This document shows positions 24,711 through 43,877 of a stretch of 64,000 nt of DNA, one piece after another. Within the stretch, counting starts at the first letter, position 1; each line of letters starts with the position of its first letter. The notes beneath the pieces were generated by a model. That model made no database searches. It saw only the letters and a list, made by a program, of their open reading frames with translations, and was not told where the DNA came from. A program made the position numbers and the translations under genes. The stretch is from an uncultured Bacteroidota bacterium (lineage in GTDB: Bacteria > Bacteroidota > Bacteroidia > Flavobacteriales > Flavobacteriaceae): NCBI GenBank assembly GCA_902595825.1, contig CACJRP010000001.1:1-64000 (forward strand). The letters are read 5' to 3'.

Positions 24711-27365
24711 TTATATGCTCAAATCCTCATTTTCTAGCAAGTTTTCATGAGAATCGTCATTGGTTTCTTCTTCCTTAATAACTTTAGCCACAGCGGCTAT
24801 GGTGTCATCACCTTTTAAATTAATTAATTTAACACCTTGAGTAGCTCTTCCCATAACTCTAAGCTTTTCAACACTCATTCTTATAGCAATTCCTGATTTG
24901 TTAATAATCATTAAATCATTTTCATCACTAACATTTTTTATAGCTACTAAAGAACCGGTCTTATCTGTAATTGATATTGTTTTTACTCCTTTACCCCCTC
25001 TATTGGTTATTCTATAATCCTCCAAACTAGATCTTTTACCGTATCCATTTTTTGAAACTACAAGAATATCAGTTGAAACGTCGTTAACCGAAACCATTCC
25101 AATTACTTTATCATTATCATCTTTTAATTTAATTCCTCTGACACCAGACGCACTCCTACCCATAGGTCTTGTTTTACTCTCTTCAAATCTGATAGCCTTA
25201 CCTGACTTAACTGCCATTAAGATTTCACTATTACCGTTGGTTAGTTTAGCCTCTAATAGTTCATCATTTTCTTTGATTGTAATGGCATTTATTCCATTGA
25301 TTCTTGGTCGAGAATATTTTTCTAAAGAAGTTTTCTTTATTTGTCCCTTTTTGGTGGCCATTACAACATAATGACTGTTTACATATTCAGTGTCTTTTAA
25401 ATCTTGTGTATTGATAAATGCTTTTACTTTGTCATCTTGTTCAATATTTATTAGGTTTTGAATTGCTCTTCCTTTAGAGGTTTTTGAACCTTCAGGTATT
25501 TCAAAAATTCTCATCCAAAAGCATCTTCCTTTTTGTGTAAAAAACAACATGTATTGGTGATTTGTGCCTACAAACATATGTTCTAAAAAATCTTCATTTC
25601 TTGTTGTAGAACCTTTTTGACCTACACCGCCCCTATTTTGTATTTTATATTCTACCAATGGTGTTCTTTTAATATACCCAGCATGAGATATGGTTACAAC
25701 AACTTTATCATCTGGTATCATATCTTCTTCACTGAAATTACCACCAGCATATTGAATTTCAGACCGTCTTTCGTCGCCATATTTTTCTTTTATATCTAAC
25801 AGCTCTGTTTTAATAATTTCCATTCTACGGTCCTTATTACCTAAAATATCGTTTAAATCTAAAATTGCCTTTTTGAGTTCACCAAACTCCTCTCTTAACT
25901 TGCTTTGCTCAAGACCGGTAAGTTGTCTAAGTCTCATCTCTACAATAGCTTTAGACTGAATTTCAGTAAGTTCATATTTTAAAGACATATTTGCTCTTGC
26001 TTCGTCAGGAGTTTTAGATTTTCTAATTATGCTAATAACCTCATCGATATTGTCCGATGCAATTATCAATCCCTCTAGTATATGAGCTCTATCTTCAGCC
26101 TTTTTTAATTCGAATTCTGTTCTTTTAACTACTACATCATGCCTGTGTTCAACAAAATAGTGTATTAATTCTTTTAAGTTTAATAGTCTTGGTCTACCAT
26201 TAACTAATGCTATATTGTTTACGCTAAACGAAGATTGTAGTGGTGTAAATTTATATAGCTTGTTCAAAACTATGTTTGGTATGGCATCTCTTTTTAGGAT
26301 GTAAACAATCCTTAAACCCTTTCTGTCAGATTCATCTCTTATATTAGATATACCTTCAATTCTCTTTTCATTTACCAATTCAGCAGTTTTTTTTATCATC
26401 TCAGCTTTATTGACCTGGTATGGAATCTCTGTTACAACAATACATTCTCTGGAATCAATTTCTTCAATTGTGGCTTTACCTCTAATTACAACTCTTCCTC
26501 TTCCAGAGTGAAAAGCTTCTCTAACCCCTTCATAACCATAAATCACACCTCCAGTTGGAAAATCCGGAGCTTTAACATGTTTAATTAATTCATCGATGTC
26601 GTTTCTTAATTGCTTTTCAACGATTAATTCTTCTTTTCTATTAGTTATTTCTAAATCTTTAAGATTCAAATTTTCCCCGACTTCTTGATATTCATTTTTT
26701 AAAATCCCAATTACTTCTTCATCTGTGATTGAAACTTTTTCTGATAAACCAATTTTTTTAATAAAAATATTATCAATAAACTTTACAATCCCGTCTACCA
26801 CCTCCATAAGGTTGTGAGGGGGCATATTGGTTGCCATACCAACAGCGATTCCAGATCCTCCATTTATCAAAAGATTGGGGATTTTAGTTGGTAAAACTAC
26901 TGGTTCCTCTAAAGTATCATCAAAATTAAGTTGTTTATCAACAGTATTTTTATCGATATCAGCTAACAAATCTTCAGAAATTTTTTGCATTCTGGCTTCT
27001 GTATACCTCATAGCAGCTGGGCTATCACCGTCAATTGATCCGTAATTACCCTGACCATCAACAAGCATGTATCTTAGACTCCACTCCTGAGCCATTCTAA
27101 CCATTGTGTCATAGACCGAAGAATCTCCGTGTGGGTGATATTTGCCTAGAACTTCTCCAACTATTCGAGCAGATTTTCTATATGATGAGGACGCTCTTAT
27201 ACCCATTTCATGCATGCCATACAAAACTCTTCTGTGTACCGGTTTTAGACCATCGCGCACATCTGGCAAAGCACGTGACACAATGACAGACATAGAGTAA
27301 TCGATGTATGAAGACTCCATTTCCTTGACAATATTGATTGGTATAAGTTTTTCTCCTTCAGTCAT
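24711..27365 (-). CDS. gyrA: DNA gyrase subunit A
   Basis: An 884-residue GyrA. The catalytic Tyr lies in [10 protein letters not shown], and the quinolone-resistance-determining region reads [20 protein letters not shown], with Ser and Asp at the two positions most often altered in resistant strains, i.e. the susceptible form. The C-terminal beta-pinwheel is present, with a GyrA-box-like [11 protein letters not shown] (Q-R-G-G-x-G-x-K-G). An acidic tail ends the protein. The start [17 protein letters not shown] is canonical. Divergent from clpC. Confidence 0.97.
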
Positions 27366-27392: not shown

Positions 27393-27577
27393 TCTATTTA
27401 TGTAGTGTTTGTTGGGATTGGGGAAATTATTTCTTATCTATTTATTAACATTTTTCATTTGAAAAATCATCTTCTAAATGAGTTGTTTCTACTTTGATTT
27501 TAATTTTTTTTTTTGTCTATTAGCCAAATAATTAACTATGGTACAATCTTTGGAATTAGTTTTTAAAATATTTATTT

Positions 27578-30106
27578 ATGGATGATAATTTTTCTCCAAG
27601 AGTAAAAGACGTTATTTCTTTCAGCAAGGAAGAGGCCCTAAGACTAGGTCATGACCACATTGGTACTGAACATTTAGTACTCGGAATCCTACGCGATGGA
27701 GGTGGAAAAGCAATTACTATTCTAAATGCTATAGACATAGATTTAGACAATCTTAGAAAAAAAGTAGAAATTTTAAACCCAGCCTTATTGAATAACGAAA
27801 GGGTTGAAAACACAAAAAAAAACCTACATTTAACAAGACAAGCTGAAAGAGCACTTAAAACAACTTTCTTAGAAGCTAAGTTGTTTCAAAGTAATTTAAT
27901 TGATACAGCCCACCTTCTACTATGTATCTTGAGAAATGAGAATGATCCAACCACAAAGCTCTTGAGTAAATTTAACATCAACTATGATTTGGTAAAAGAG
28001 CAATTCAAAATATTACTAACAAATGATTCTGAGTACCTGGAGATTTCTGATTCTTCTTTTCCAGAGGAAAAAGATGATTCTGAAAGCGGCGAAAAGCAGA
28101 ACCCATTTGTTCCAACATCTGAATCCAGCAAATCAAGAAAATCTAAAACCCCAGTCCTTGATAATTTTGGAAAAGATATAACTGGACTTGCAGAAATGGA
28201 TAAATTAGATCCAGTTGTTGGTCGAGAAAAAGAAATTGAAAGGGTTTCTCAGATTTTAAGCAGGAGAAAGAAAAATAATCCTTTATTAATTGGTGAGCCA
28301 GGAGTCGGAAAATCTGCCATCGCTGAAGGGTTAGCCTTAAGGATAATTCAAAAAAGGGTATCAAGGGTTCTTTATGGAAAAAGAATTATAACACTTGATT
28401 TGGCAAGCCTTGTAGCTGGTACTAAATATAGAGGGCAATTTGAGGAGAGAATGAAGGCAGTTGTTAATGAATTAGAAAAAAATGATGATATTATTCTTTT
28501 TATAGACGAAATTCATACAATTGTGGGTGCTGGAGGAGCAACAGGCAGTTTAGATGCCTCAAACATGTTCAAACCTGCTCTAGCGAGAGGGGAGATACAG
28601 TGTATTGGTGCAACAACTTTGGATGAGTACAGGCAAAATATTGAAAAAGACGGAGCCTTAGAAAGAAGATTTCAAAAGGTTCTTATTGAACAAACATCTG
28701 AAAAAGAAACAATAGAGATTTTAAATAACGTAAAGGAGAAATATGAAAATCATCATAATGTAACTTACACAAAATCCGCAATTGATGCATGTGTAGAATT
28801 AACAAGTAGATATGTTACTGATCGATATTTACCGGATAAGGCAATAGATGCACTTGATGAAGCAGGTTCCAGAGTACATATTAAGAATATGAATGTTCCA
28901 AAAGAAGTAATTGATTTAGAAGAACAACTTGAAACTGTAAGAAATAACAAAAACAGCGTTGTTAAGAAACAAAAATATGAAGAAGCTGCAAAACTTCGTG
29001 ATGATGAAAAAAGAGTTGAAAGAAATTTAATTTTAGCTCAAGAAAAGTGGGAAGAGGAGTCAAGATTAAATAGAATTGAAGTAACTGATGAACATATATC
29101 AGAGGTTGTTTCAATGATGACAGGAATTCCAGTTAGCAAAATACTTTCTACTGAAAAGAGTAAACTTTCCGGGATGTGCGATAAAATAAATTCAAGTTTA
29201 ATTGGCCAAGAACAAGCAGTAGAAAAGGTTGTTAAAGCAATTCAAAGAAATAGAGCTGGTCTAAAAGACCCACAAAAACCCATAGGCTCATTCATTTTTT
29301 TGGGTCAAACTGGAGTTGGAAAGACTCAACTAGCTAAAATTTTAGCAACAGAAATATTTGATTCAGAAGAAAATTTAGTAAGAATCGATATGAGTGAATA
29401 TATGGAAAAATTTGCTATATCGAGGCTAATTGGTGCTCCTCCAGGTTACGTTGGTTACGAAGAGGGCGGACAGCTTAGTGAAAAAGTTAGACTAAAACCT
29501 TATTCTGTAATTTTACTTGATGAAGTGGAAAAAGCTCACCCAGATGTTTTTAATATGCTGCTTCAAGTTTTGGATGACGGGTTTTTAACAGACAGTTTAG
29601 GAAGAAAAGTGAATTTTCAAAATACAATTATAATTATGACTTCCAACATTGGAGCAAGACAAATTAAGGATTTTGGAAATGGTGTAGGTTTTGAAACTTC
29701 ATCTCAAAAAGCACAATCGGAGGAATATGAAAAAAGTGTAATTAAAAATTCTCTTAAAAAAACTTTTTCACCCGAATTTTTAAATCGTATAGACGACATT
29801 GTTATTTTTAATGGCTTGGACAAAAAGCATATGTTGAAAATCATTGACATTGAGCTTAAAAAAGTTATTAATAGAATTAAAAAGCTAGGTTTTGAAATTA
29901 AAATTTCAAGAAAAGCAAAAGAATTTCTTGTTGATAAGGGATATGATAGAAAGTATGGAGCCAGACCCTTGAAAAGAGCTATTCAAAAATATCTAGAGGA
30001 TTTAATTGCACAAGAAATTGTAACAGACTCCATTAAAGAAAATGACATAATCAAGGTTGACCTCGATAATAAGAATCCTAAATTATTCCTTAACATAGGT
30101 CGCTAA
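27578..30106 (+). CDS. clpC: Clp protease ATPase subunit ClpC
   Basis: An 842-residue AAA+ unfoldase. Clp_N repeats at the start (FSPRVKDVISFSKEEALRLG and GTEHLVLGILRDGGG), first ATPase Walker A LLIGEPGVGKSAIAEGLALR, a UVR motif (KKQKYEEAAKLRDDEKRVE) between the two ATPase modules that separates ClpC from ClpA/ClpB, and second Walker A FLGQTGVGKTQLAKILA. It unfolds substrates for ClpP in protein quality control. It stands alone, divergent from gyrA. Confidence 0.95.
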   Translation: MDDNFSPRVKDVISFSKEEALRLGHDHIGTEHLVLGILRDGGGKAITILNAIDIDLDNLRKKVEILNPALLNNERVENTKKNLHLTRQAERALKTTFLEAKLFQSNLIDTAHLLLCILRNENDPTTKLLSKFNINYDLVKEQFKILLTNDSEYLEISDSSFPEEKDDSESGEKQNPFVPTSESSKSRKSKTPVLDNFGKDITGLAEMDKLDPVVGREKEIERVSQILSRRKKNNPLLIGEPGVGKSAIAEGLALRIIQKRVSRVLYGKRIITLDLASLVAGTKYRGQFEERMKAVVNELEKNDDIILFIDEIHTIVGAGGATGSLDASNMFKPALARGEIQCIGATTLDEYRQNIEKDGALERRFQKVLIEQTSEKETIEILNNVKEKYENHHNVTYTKSAIDACVELTSRYVTDRYLPDKAIDALDEAGSRVHIKNMNVPKEVIDLEEQLETVRNNKNSVVKKQKYEEAAKLRDDEKRVERNLILAQEKWEEESRLNRIEVTDEHISEVVSMMTGIPVSKILSTEKSKLSGMCDKINSSLIGQEQAVEKVVKAIQRNRAGLKDPQKPIGSFIFLGQTGVGKTQLAKILATEIFDSEENLVRIDMSEYMEKFAISRLIGAPPGYVGYEEGGQLSEKVRLKPYSVILLDEVEKAHPDVFNMLLQVLDDGFLTDSLGRKVNFQNTIIIMTSNIGARQIKDFGNGVGFETSSQKAQSEEYEKSVIKNSLKKTFSPEFLNRIDDIVIFNGLDKKHMLKIIDIELKKVINRIKKLGFEIKISRKAKEFLVDKGYDRKYGARPLKRAIQKYLEDLIAQEIVTDSIKENDIIKVDLDNKNPKLFLNIGR

Positions 30107-40358: not shown

Positions 40359-40872
40359 ATTTAAAGGAAGAAAGATATTATACAATAATCTACAAAATGT
40401 TAGACCCACAACGGATAGAACTAAAGAGTCTCTATTCAATATTTTGAACCAGTATTTTGTGTTTGAAGAAATCAGTGCTCTTGATTTATTTTCTGGTAGC
40501 GGTAATATTAGCTATGAATTAGCTTCAAGGGGAGTAAAAGAAATAACCTCCGTTGAAAAAAATATAAAATGTGTAAGGTTTATAAATAATTTTTCAAAGA
40601 CACTTAATATAAAATTAAGTGTAGTCAATTCTTCTACGCTCAAATTTTTAAATGATACAAAATTAAAGTTTGACCTTATTATAGCTGATCCTCCCTACTC
40701 ATATACGATAGGTGAGATACAAACTTTAATTGACTTAGTCTTTACAAAACAAATTTTAAAGAATAACGGAATACTAATTATCGAACATCATAAAAAAAAA
40801 TCAATTAGAGATAATGAATTTTTGTTTGATACTAGAACATATGGAACAAGTTCATTGAGTTTTTTTAAATAA
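40339..40872 (+). CDS. rsmD: 16S rRNA (guanine966-N2)-methyltransferase
   Basis: A 177-residue SAM-dependent methyltransferase. MRVISGKFKGRKILY, VRPTTDRTKESLFNIL, the SAM-binding ALDLFSGSGNISYELASRG and the catalytic ADPPYSY (DPPY) motif identify RsmD. Its start overlaps the DUF3822 gene by 20 bp. Its stop at 40870-40872 lies inside the T-run that ends the RNase P RNA transcript on the other strand. Confidence 0.95.
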   Translation: MRVISGKFKGRKILYNNLQNVRPTTDRTKESLFNILNQYFVFEEISALDLFSGSGNISYELASRGVKEITSVEKNIKCVRFINNFSKTLNIKLSVVNSSTLKFLNDTKLKFDLIIADPPYSYTIGEIQTLIDLVFTKQILKNNGILIIEHHKKKSIRDNEFLFDTRTYGTSSLSFFK

Positions 40873-40876
40873 AAAA

Positions 40877-41165
40877 AGCAGGTCATAAGCCGGATTCTGT
40901 CTAGTCTTATCATTTATCTAGGTTTTTAATTACTCAAAAACTCAAACCGCCTACCCCTCTGCAAAGAACGAGCAACTCTTAAATGCAGATATATTTAGCG
41001 TTGCACCGTATAGAGTTTACATGATTTCACTACAGCTTTACTGTACATTCTTTCTGTTGCACTAGTCCTAATTATCATATTGATAATCGACGGGTGTTAC
41101 CCGCTATACTGCTCTACGGTGTCCGGACTTTCCTCTCTAAAATTAGAGCGATAAGAAGACCTGCT
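40877..41165 (-). ncRNA. rnpB: RNase P RNA (bacterial type A)
   Basis: On the minus strand the 5' end AGCAGGTC (41165-41158) pairs with the 3' end GACCTGCT (40884-40877) as helix P1. Within it, GAGAGGAAAGTCCGGAC near 41137-41121, GGGGTAGGCGGTTTGAG in the 3' half and ACAGAATCCGGCTTATGACC at the 3' end are the conserved core segments. About 289 nt, compact for the class. It is followed by TTTTTTT over 40877-40871, which can end transcription. Confidence 0.93.
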
Positions 41166-41240
41166 GTGCAAATTTATAATTATTGTTAACAAATTTTATT
41201 GAATTTTAAATTTTGATAAAAAAATTAAATAAGCTTTTTA

Positions 41241-41253: not shown

Positions 41254-42954
41254 ATGGGCGAATATAAGATCTCTGCAATAAAATATAGACCTAAAAAGTT
41301 TGAGGAAGTTGTTGGACAAAATGATGTTACTAGCACCCTTGAAAATGCTATAAATAAAGGAAAGCTCGGGCAAGCTTTATTATTTTCTGGTCCAAGGGGG
41401 GTTGGAAAAACTACTTGTGCTCGTATTTTGGCAAAGAAAGTCAATTTACACGAAGATAAAAATAATGATTACTCATTCAATATTTTCGAGTTAGATGCAG
41501 CATCAAATAATGGGGTTGATCATATTAGAGAGTTAAACGAAAAAGTGAGAGTTCCTCCAAGAATAGGAAATTACAAAGTATATATAATTGATGAAGTACA
41601 TATGCTGTCAATTGGTGCATTTAATGCATTCTTAAAAACATTAGAAGAGCCCCCTAGCCACGCTATTTTTATTTTAGCAACTACCGAAAAGTCAAAAATT
41701 TTACCAACAGTGTTATCAAGATGTCAAATTTTTGACTTCAAGAGAATAAGTGTTTTAGATATAAAGAAAAAACTAGAAAGTATTCTAATAGAGCAAAAAA
41801 TATCATATGATGATGAGGCGTTGTTTTTAATTTCAGAATCATCCGAAGGTTCATTGAGAGACGCTTTGCAAATTTTAGATAGGATGATAAATTTTTGTGA
41901 AAATGAAATTACTATAAATGAAGTCTCAAAAAATTTAAATATCGTAGGAAGTAAACTGTATTTGGATATTTGTGACGAAATAATTGAAAAAAATATACCC
42001 AAAGTGTTATTAATGCTTGATGAAATAATTTTAAATGGTTTCAGTGAAGTAAATTTTATAATTGGTTTATCAAATCATTTTAGAAATCTTTTTTTCTGCA
42101 AGAACAACAATACATTTAAGTTAATTGAATCCAGTGAAAAATTAAAAGAATTTTACCTTGAGCAATCTAATAAGGTTGACATAACTTGGATTAGAAAAGG
42201 GTTAAAAATCATTAATACATTTGAAATAAATTTTAAAAACATTAATAATAAAAGAATTCACGCTGAATTATGTTTAATGCAGATTTCATCTATCAAAAAA
42301 GAAGGAAAAAATATTTCTAAAAAAAAAGATAACTTTAAAAACGATAATAAGCTATTAGACACTGAAAAAAACAAGAGTGATGTTAACACAAAAAATACAG
42401 AAAACTTAGTTCCAAAGAACAATTACAAAGCCAAAGAAAATACCAAAAGTGAATTAGAAAAAAAATCCACTGAGTCAGATAAAAGTATTAATGAAGTATC
42501 TTCTTATTCATTAGCAAGCGTAGAAAAAAAAAAGATATTCAATAATAGAAAGATTAATACTGATTTTTCAAAATCAAAACCTACAAGCCAAAAAAATAAT
42601 TTTACACAAGAAGATTTAGAAAATTACTGGGATAAATATCATAATCACAAACAACAAAATAAAGAGTTTAATATTGCCTCTTTGCTAAAAATAAGTAAAC
42701 CAAAAAAGAATGGTAATATTATTGAATATTCTGTCACCTCAGATATTAATAAAAAAGAATTGGAGGATGAGTTACCAGAATTGTTGAGTTATATTAAAAC
42801 TTCACTTAAAAATAATCTAATTGAGATAAAATTTAACACAGACAATTCAATTAAAAAAAATATTTTATACACGCCATCAGAGAAGTTTGAAAAATTAGTT
42901 GAATTAAATCCATCACTAGAAATATTAAGAAAAAAACTTGATTTAGACTATTAA
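41254..42954 (+). CDS. dnaX: DNA polymerase III subunit gamma/tau
   Basis: A 566-residue clamp-loader ATPase. KYRPKKFEEVVGQ, Walker A SGPRGVGKTTCARIL, YIIDEVHMLS (Walker B), LATTEKSKILPTVLSRC (SRC motif) and SEGSLRDALQILDRM (sensor 2) are all present. The zinc module with four Cys found in most DnaX proteins is replaced by a short Cys-free loop (about residues 60-75), which I recall as normal for flavobacterial DnaX. After residue ~345 comes a Lys/Asn/Ser-rich linker, then a C-terminal domain. The linker holds an A9 run (42319-42327) and an A10 run (42524-42533), both possible slippage sites giving a gamma-like short form. Confidence 0.94.
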   Translation: MGEYKISAIKYRPKKFEEVVGQNDVTSTLENAINKGKLGQALLFSGPRGVGKTTCARILAKKVNLHEDKNNDYSFNIFELDAASNNGVDHIRELNEKVRVPPRIGNYKVYIIDEVHMLSIGAFNAFLKTLEEPPSHAIFILATTEKSKILPTVLSRCQIFDFKRISVLDIKKKLESILIEQKISYDDEALFLISESSEGSLRDALQILDRMINFCENEITINEVSKNLNIVGSKLYLDICDEIIEKNIPKVLLMLDEIILNGFSEVNFIIGLSNHFRNLFFCKNNNTFKLIESSEKLKEFYLEQSNKVDITWIRKGLKIINTFEINFKNINNKRIHAELCLMQISSIKKEGKNISKKKDNFKNDNKLLDTEKNKSDVNTKNTENLVPKNNYKAKENTKSELEKKSTESDKSINEVSSYSLASVEKKKIFNNRKINTDFSKSKPTSQKNNFTQEDLENYWDKYHNHKQQNKEFNIASLLKISKPKKNGNIIEYSVTSDINKKELEDELPELLSYIKTSLKNNLIEIKFNTDNSIKKNILYTPSEKFEKLVELNPSLEILRKKLDLDY

Positions 42955-42980: not shown

Positions 42981-43877
42981 CTATCGATCACCACTATCTT
43001 TTTTATATAATAACCTAATCATCCCATCTGCAAGACCTACTTTTGGAACATAAATTTCAGAAGAACCCGACCATTCAAGGGTCTTTAAAAATATTTCAGC
43101 CGCTGGAATTATTACATCGGATCTGTCTGGGTTTAAATCGAAATTAATTATTCTTTCTTCATTACTCATTTTAATCAAACTTTTATATATAGAATTAAGC
43201 TTTATTAAGGTTAATGGTCTAGAATCCAAAACTCCAGCAATTTTGAATATTTTATTTATATTTCCACCTGAGCCAATTAGGGCAATTTTGCCTTGTTGAC
43301 GGATGTTAGATTCAATCCAAATACGTATTTGATGCCAAACATCTTGGCTGGTTATTTTATTTATCATTCTTATCGTCCCAATCTTAAAGGATTTTGAACT
43401 TTTTCTTTTTCCATTAACTATAATTGAGAATTCTGTGCTTCCTCCACCAACATCAACATATATAAATGTTCTATTTTTATTTAAAAATTCAAATAAATTG
43501 TTGAGGGAAATAATTTTAGCCTCTTTTCTACCATCAATAATTTCAATTTTTAAATTTGTTTTCTTTTTTACTTCCTGAATTATTACTTTGGAATTATTTG
43601 CTTCTCTTAGTGCAGATGTCGCAAATGCAAGCGAGCTTTTAACTTCATTTACTTTAATAATAAATTTAAATGCCTTTATAGTTTTAATTATTTTTTTGAT
43701 ATTTTCTGAAGATATTTCACCAATCGTAAATGATTCTTGACCAAGTCTAATAGGAACTCGCACAATTGAGCTTTTAATAAATTTGATAGGGAACCCCTTT
43801 TTAATTACTACGTTTGATATAAGGAGTCTTATTGCATTTGAACCTATATCAATCGCAGCATATTTTTCGATTTTCAT
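42981..43877 (-). CDS. ppx: Ppx/GppA family exopolyphosphatase
   Basis: A 298-residue protein of the actin-like Ppx/GppA family, shorter than the two-lobe E. coli Ppx and without the HD extension. YAAIDIGSNAIRLLISNVV, TSALREANNS, FIYVDVGGGSTEFSIIV and LIGSGGNINKI are the conserved phosphate-binding motifs. It degrades polyphosphate or pppGpp. It overlaps ppk1 by 4 bp, so synthesis and breakdown genes are translationally coupled. Confidence 0.92.
   Translation of the reverse strand: MKIEKYAAIDIGSNAIRLLISNVVIKKGFPIKFIKSSIVRVPIRLGQESFTIGEISSENIKKIIKTIKAFKFIIKVNEVKSSLAFATSALREANNSKVIIQEVKKKTNLKIEIIDGRKEAKIISLNNLFEFLNKNRTFIYVDVGGGSTEFSIIVNGKRKSSKSFKIGTIRMINKITSQDVWHQIRIWIESNIRQQGKIALIGSGGNINKIFKIAGVLDSRPLTLIKLNSIYKSLIKMSNEERIINFDLNPDRSDVIIPAAEIFLKTLEWSGSSEIYVPKVGLADGMIRLLYKKDSGDR

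Follow-up and report, generated by a model that had tools for sequence, protein, structure and literature searches.

The dnaX gene and its two A-runs

The window analysed here (a 64,000-nt stretch of DNA from an uncultured member of the Flavobacteriaceae, whose genome assembly, 1.34 Mb in size, is partial at 67% completeness) carries on its forward strand a dnaX gene (41254-42954) for the gamma/tau subunit of DNA polymerase III, with a frame-0 product (tau) of 566 aa. The open reading frame (ORF) matched the TIGR02397 dnaX_nterm profile with E=4.9e-107 and the NF011531 profile with E=1.3e-160, the latter under that profile's curated cut-off; among the matches listed, the best named one came from an uncultured Flavobacteriaceae bacterium at 46% identity. 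Between rsmD and dnaX, on the strand opposite to dnaX, sits the RNase P RNA gene rnpB (40871-41167, minus strand; RF00010, 198.1 bits), and the downstream neighbour is a ppx-like gene (42981-43877, minus strand; ORF and profile match). Another profile match placed near dnaX a gene encoding DUF3822, a Bacteroidota family; both this gene and the named match assign the DNA to Bacteroidota.

The predicted model of the window's DnaX (mean pLDDT 76.2, pTM 0.54) is ordered through residue 351, with the last core helix at residues 333-345, and mostly ordered again at residues 446-566. It thereby divides the protein into a clamp-loader core common to gamma and tau (residues 1-351; 41254-42306, plus strand), which we take to be equivalent to domains I-III of E. 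coli, a Lys/Asn-rich linker in which nearly all residues have pLDDT below 50 (residues 352-445; 42307-42588, plus strand), and a C-terminal domain found only in tau (residues 446-566; 42589-42951, plus strand). In E. coli, the DnaX tail binds both the polymerase and the helicase. The E. coli gamma/tau chain 8val_C aligned with the core (Z 34.7, rmsd 3.1, 354 residues aligned), in a structure search that barely covered residues beyond 352.

Tau is encoded in one uninterrupted ORF which has a run of at least nine A's between the core and the tau tail. Two such runs, located to the exact nucleotide by the preliminary description of this DNA, lie on the plus strand in the linker: an A9 at 42319-42327 (site 1; codons 356-358, read AAA AAA AAA GAT in frame) and an A10 at 42524-42533 (site 2; codons 424-427, read GAA AAA AAA AAG), the latter inside an SLASVEKKK motif. 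Both had been said to lie just after the clamp-loader domains, which is accurate for the A9, given that the core ends at residue 351, but not for the A10, found ~70 codons further on and near the end of the linker. Translation of the shifted frames reproduced the products that had been proposed: one A added to the A9 (equivalent to a -1 ribosomal shift) leads to AGA TAA, with the stop at 42330-42332 (plus strand) and a 359-aa product, and one A added to the A10 leads to AAA GAT ATT CAA TAA (i.e., KDIQ-stop), with the stop at 42543-42545 (plus strand) and a 430-aa product. Stops follow in both slipped frames, at 1 and 10 codons for the A9 and at 4 and 29 codons for the A10; the later stop of each pair belongs to a third frame which had gone unmentioned and which, at site 1, is entered with two inserted A's or one lost A and ends at the TAG at 42356-42358 (plus strand). 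Because core order ends at residue 351 and the linker is predicted to be disordered, a stop at residue 359 is predicted to keep the complete core and to remove the tau tail, a domain absent from either short product.

The junction run and the tau frame in relatives

Long A-runs are common in AT-rich DNA, and the caution voiced on this point in the preliminary description was borne out: the window's ORFs (53 ORFs, 58,197 nt) contain 18 sense runs of at least nine A's against 16.0 ± 2.9 expected from synonymous resampling, and the dnaX protein sequence by itself gives at least two such runs with probability 0.83 under the same procedure. As the window taken alone shows no excess of A-runs, the case rests on conservation in relatives.

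We therefore turned to related dnaX loci. Briefly, all 99 genomes searched (window genome included) gave a match, which in several of them (e.g., G002, G003, G054, G057, G062, G082 and G093) was weak or partial, probably to another clamp-loader gene, so that no dnaX was taken; further loci came from named genomes, as the best 80 of a longer match list. The resulting set (L001-L171) was reduced to 166 by removal of L002 (a weak other match), L006 (the same gene as L032), L033 (10 bases) and L042 and L048 (tail pieces), and to 161 by removal of two duplicates and three loci with too short a junction. A junction run of at least nine A's was present in 150 of these 161 loci and absent from 11, compared with none in the 161 990-nt cores; its length was A10 in 116 loci, A11 in 17, A9 in 13, A12 in two and A13 in two. 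Contiguous dnaX genes had the run in 106 of 113 cases against 45.9 expected from synonymous resampling (18 of 22 against 3.4 at a GC content of at least 0.45), while elsewhere in the same genes (1053 windows) we counted 7 runs of this length against 15.3 expected. The run was also kept in loci of 45-62% GC and in those using AAA for a minority of their Lys codons; across loci with GC of 0.45-0.70 it was found in 20 out of 26, and in genome G072 (96% complete, 2.8 Mb) both strands together contain a single A10, the one at the dnaX junction (C1:2551195). Conservation of the A-run against synonymous codons, which had been put forward as a check, hence lies far above synonymous expectation for site 1, and these comparisons of observed with resampled genes show codon-level selection on the junction run in relatives.

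A second sample of the phylum gave the run in 27 of 28 genomes of the same class (Bacteroidia; the first set already included two of them, G063 and G076) and in 20 of 38 genomes of other classes, these 38 being hand-picked from 89. We found it in none of three very small genomes (0/3). The loci L239 (G074, 0.3 Mb), L240 and L241 (0.6 Mb) are AT-rich and without a junction run, yet have 8-9 A's elsewhere; frame 0 of dnaX in L239 ends at residue 340, leaving the core alone. On this distribution, the A9 at 42319-42327 is best read as the window's copy of an old slippage site, which most of the Bacteroidia sampled have kept, as have about half of the genomes sampled from other classes. As a separate observation on the core, the zinc module of DnaX (a Cys cluster at residues ~62-76) is missing in the window protein and, judged by a simple pattern, in 107 of the 161 loci, window included, and present in 54; 100 of the 107 loci without the module have a junction run before codon 360. 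The absence of the module looks like a clade-wide loss.

The tau tail itself provides a second line of evidence. In 46 of the 161 loci dnaX is interrupted directly after the core, and a profile of tau tails placed the tail in another frame in 44 of them (-1 in 38, +1 in 6); the remaining two have an in-frame stop (L148) or no tail match (L102). The window gene, being contiguous, differs from these 44 split relatives in that its tail is not out of frame. At the junction, 42 of the 46 interrupted genes carry at least nine A's (the four without are L038, L085, L148 and L171), as do five of the six genes with a +1 tail. One of the exceptions, L038 (G026), has its tail in the -1 frame at a border without an A-run (GAA AAG TAA). 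Of the 106 contiguous genes with the run, 105 reach a stop in both slipped frames within 15 codons and 97 do so within 10 codons, as opposed to proportions of 0.506 and 0.327, respectively, at random core positions. Where the run is followed by IIP (34 genes), the first Ile is encoded by ATA in 32 cases compared with 717 of 3050 core Ile codons, and an ATA at this place hides a TAA in a slipped frame. A tree of the core (FastTree, 156 of the 161 loci labelled, no support values or shuffled labels) requires at least 25 changes between contiguous and split forms. Both forms occur within Aquimarina (contiguous in Aquimarina mytili, L099; split in Aquimarina sp. RZ0, L120), and split genes are present in named isolate genomes such as those of Flavobacterium, Chryseobacterium, Halpernia, Flavicella and Aquimarina.

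Site 2 and run lengths in the window's genus

The two sites fared differently in these comparisons. The idea that slippage makes gamma gained ground at the A9, through conservation beyond codon bias and the out-of-frame tails of 44 relatives, and lost it at the A10, whose 430-aa product had been likened to the 431-residue gamma of E. coli: split relatives have frame-0 products of 354-387 aa. The A10 is a second run at the level of the genus. A pattern search detected the conserved protein motif around it (GLSLxSIxxKK-like) in 78 of 157 genes; at least nine A's were present there in only 4 of these 78, all of them from this genus, and on these numbers we discarded site 2 as the principal source of gamma. 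The A10 probably arose as a side effect of encoding a Lys-rich motif in AT-rich DNA, and may add a second, 430-aa DnaX product. In one member of the genus (G001; L032, codon 417) site 2 is an A11, which puts the tail out of frame in an assembly that contains Ns. The closely similar G006 has A10 at this place.

Alignment of five genus members placed the site 1 run at codon 349, 354 or 356, so that the run is kept and the codon is not; the window has the shortest run among them, and that of G004 reaches A13. These junction runs alone prove little, since, given their proteins, a run is expected with probability 0.48-0.72 in each of four genus members. As a control, we followed runs of at least nine A's in the window's ORFs into stretches of the four other members (15 of the 16 runs outside dnaX were comparable). 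The two dnaX sites were kept in 8 of 8 ortholog comparisons and the other runs in 5 of 41 (Fisher 2.9e-6; 8.5e-4 for site 1 alone; the comparisons share ancestry).

Run-length avoidance differs between the genus and other relatives. In sampled stretches, ORFs of the genus do not avoid runs of at least nine A's (83 against 87.0 expected), and four other relatives do (3 against 25.1) yet have such a run in dnaX. Longer runs in the genus ORFs are somewhat low at A10 or more (21 against 30.4) and low at A11 or more (2 against 10.7, in N-free ORFs). When ORFs with Ns are included, runs of at least 11 A's number three, namely those in dnaX of G004, in dnaX of G001 and at codon 16 of another G001 ORF, the last of which speaks against runs of this length being exclusive to dnaX. 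The true start of that other ORF is perhaps an ATG past the run. The length from which runs are avoided in ORFs thus seems to be ~10-11 in the genus (L242-L261 and the window) and at most 9 in the four other relatives, which suggests a change in slippage by the RNA or the DNA polymerase. Baranov et al. 2005 (PMC1088944) offer a criterion by which genomes that do not avoid A9 may suppress slippage on nine A's, and slippage on the window's A9 may accordingly be weaker than in relatives, because runs of this length are not avoided in the genus. A run of another kind, a T11 at 27504-27514, has 12-nt flanks identical in the window, G001 and G004 (L242 13058; L251 8147); in the window it lies between a minus-strand ORF ending at 27365 and a plus-strand ORF starting at 27578, and is perhaps a promoter element.

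Proposed slippage by RNA polymerase and competing explanations

Several features can be read off directly: an A-run that is conserved in position, selection on it at the codon level in relatives, the stops in both slipped frames and the out-of-frame tails of relatives. From these we infer that slippage occurs in the window species, at what rate, and that RNA polymerase is its agent. Specifically, we propose that RNA polymerase at times adds or drops A's at 42319-42327, that tau (566 aa) would come from mRNA whose run is unchanged or altered by a multiple of three, and that other mRNAs would reach an early stop and give a gamma of ~359 aa comprising the whole clamp-loader core without the tail. 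We assign a probability of roughly 0.7 to such slippage supplying a ~359-aa gamma beside tau.

The slipping enzyme could instead be the ribosome, shifting by -1 at the runs as in E. coli. Some local features would suit it: A_AAA_AAG is in frame at 42528-42534 (at site 2 only), A_AAA_AAA within the A9 is also in the right phase, and an AAGG returned by the motif search at 42302-42305 (plus strand), 14-17 nt before site 1, is a possible Shine-Dalgarno-like stimulator. This AAGG is not conserved in relatives, where a Shine-Dalgarno-like motif precedes the run in 8 of 149 loci compared with 5 of 149 for the control; the window and G005, which has a GAGGGAG stretch in a similar place, are among the eight, and in these two the motif may stimulate a ribosomal shift. 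At site 2, the tetramers of this kind that were searched for are absent from the 30 nt upstream. The 60 nt downstream of the run are not more folded than shuffled sequences (mean z -0.29, z below -2 in 10 of 149; 149 of the 150 run-bearing loci were folded), and a downstream stem-loop is absent from the window, with fold z of 0.01 and -0.97 at the two sites. Moreover, any of the three codon phases can hold the start of a run in relatives, run length is at least A9 and not A7, the next base is T, G or C, and the six relatives with +1 tails (five of them with a run) need the direction opposite to a -1 shift. Mixed shift directions among orthologs are given as a mark of transcriptional realignment by Antonov et al. 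(PMC3711429). With tails in both directions, runs in all codon phases and no conserved stem-loop or Shine-Dalgarno-like motif, we prefer RNA polymerase as the slipping enzyme and, the window's AAGG notwithstanding, reject ribosomal frameshifting as the main mechanism; that the ribosome makes the shift appears quite improbable.

Other readings accept the A9 and doubt its use. The ancestral site may have been functional while the RNA polymerase of this AT-rich genus now slips little, which would make the A9 a relic of codon bias in a gene giving mostly tau. The lack of A9 avoidance in the genus, set against its avoidance in the four other relatives, fits this, as does the agreement of the window's runs with codon usage. 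The retention of the dnaX sites in 8/8 comparisons versus 5/41 for other runs speaks against it, together with the location in dnaX of two of the three longest runs found in genus ORFs and the persistence of the site 1 run as it moves codon position; we judge the relic unlikely. A further rival is chance: AT-rich DNA coding for a Lys-rich linker would produce such runs with no function. Chance alone fits the window counts, which equal synonymous expectation, and is contradicted for site 1 by the conserved run in relatives (which persists at GC 45-62% and where AAA is the minority Lys codon) and by the out-of-frame tails of 44 of them, leaving it very little credit as a whole, though it may hold for site 2. 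Finally, the split genes could stem from replication slippage in DNA, i.e., a phase switch in mixed populations, or from assembly errors. The repeated changes between contiguous and split forms and the A11 of G001 next to the A10 of G006, in an assembly with Ns, are what one might see in that case. Against this, named isolate genomes include split genes, which break at the same border and keep a conserved tail, and a core replication gene would be unlikely to be phase variable, so that we regard this origin as extremely improbable.

Slippage by RNA polymerase at the A9, our preferred reading, can be joined with several of these points. In Bacteroidota the run would make dnaX nearly indifferent to frame, as most run lengths would yield some tau and some gamma, and flips between contiguous and split forms would cost little. 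In the genus the length needed for slippage would have drifted upward (runs of nine or more are not avoided, those of 11 or more are rare) and dnaX would have responded by lengthening its run (to A13 in G004) and gaining another, such that the window species would use two weak sites in series to make 359- and 430-aa DnaX. As a whole, this extended reading is speculative and rather doubtful.

Slippage in dnaX is itself known, from Thermus and from two-ORF genes (PMC3711429), and the window gene would be a further case. Thermus thermophilus dnaX undergoes transcriptional slippage on an A9 (Larsen 2000, via PMC1088944 and PMC5009743). The window gene resembles it in having tau in one ORF, a sense A9 and near stops in both other frames, and differs in that its core is followed directly by the run, at codon 356 of 566, and that slippage is here a prediction. 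Two-ORF dnaX has been described for 17 genes in 12 genera, nine of them with A10 (Antonov et al. 2013, PMC3711429); our split relatives are of the same type, in which slippage would make tau, but that paper reports -1 cases only, whereas 6 of our 44 are +1, and the window gene is contiguous. E. coli makes gamma and tau from one gene by a programmed -1 ribosomal frameshift (PMC5009743, PMC3711429). The window shares with it A_AAA_AAG in its A10 and has AAGG before its A9, and is unlike it in having no stem-loop at either site, an AAGG that is not conserved and a shorter gamma. In the symbiont Blochmannia, frameshifted poly(A) genes include dnaX, with the indel presumed to be bridged by slippage (PMC3017870); that symbiont gene has its frameshift inside the part specific to tau, the window gene a conserved site at the core border. 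One nucleotide can swap which dnaX product needs the slip (Atkins et al. 2016, PMC5009743), and the at least 25 contiguous/split changes offer a natural test of this statement. In the partial literature available, we found no report of dnaX slippage across Bacteroidetes, with possible overlap in the genera of PMC3711429, nor any published account of how widely the run occurs in Bacteroidota, of shifts in both directions, of counts compared with codon bias or of the genus-level control.

The case for a purposeful gamma outside E. coli-like bacteria and Thermus had rested on few examples. Retention of the run in most sampled Bacteroidia, even where the genome has no other A10, suggests that retaining a short DnaX pays off in them; many cultured species are candidates for testing it. 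In many Bacteroidota, dnaX probably appears truncated in automatic annotations. As to the tails of the 44 split genes, 37 lack an ATG in the interval that opens 10 codons ahead of the frame-0 stop and closes 36 codons past it; a tail-frame ATG, GTG or TTG lies within 20 codons past that stop in 16 genes and within 10 codons before it in three, so that separate translation of the tail by reinitiation may occur in some of these genes.
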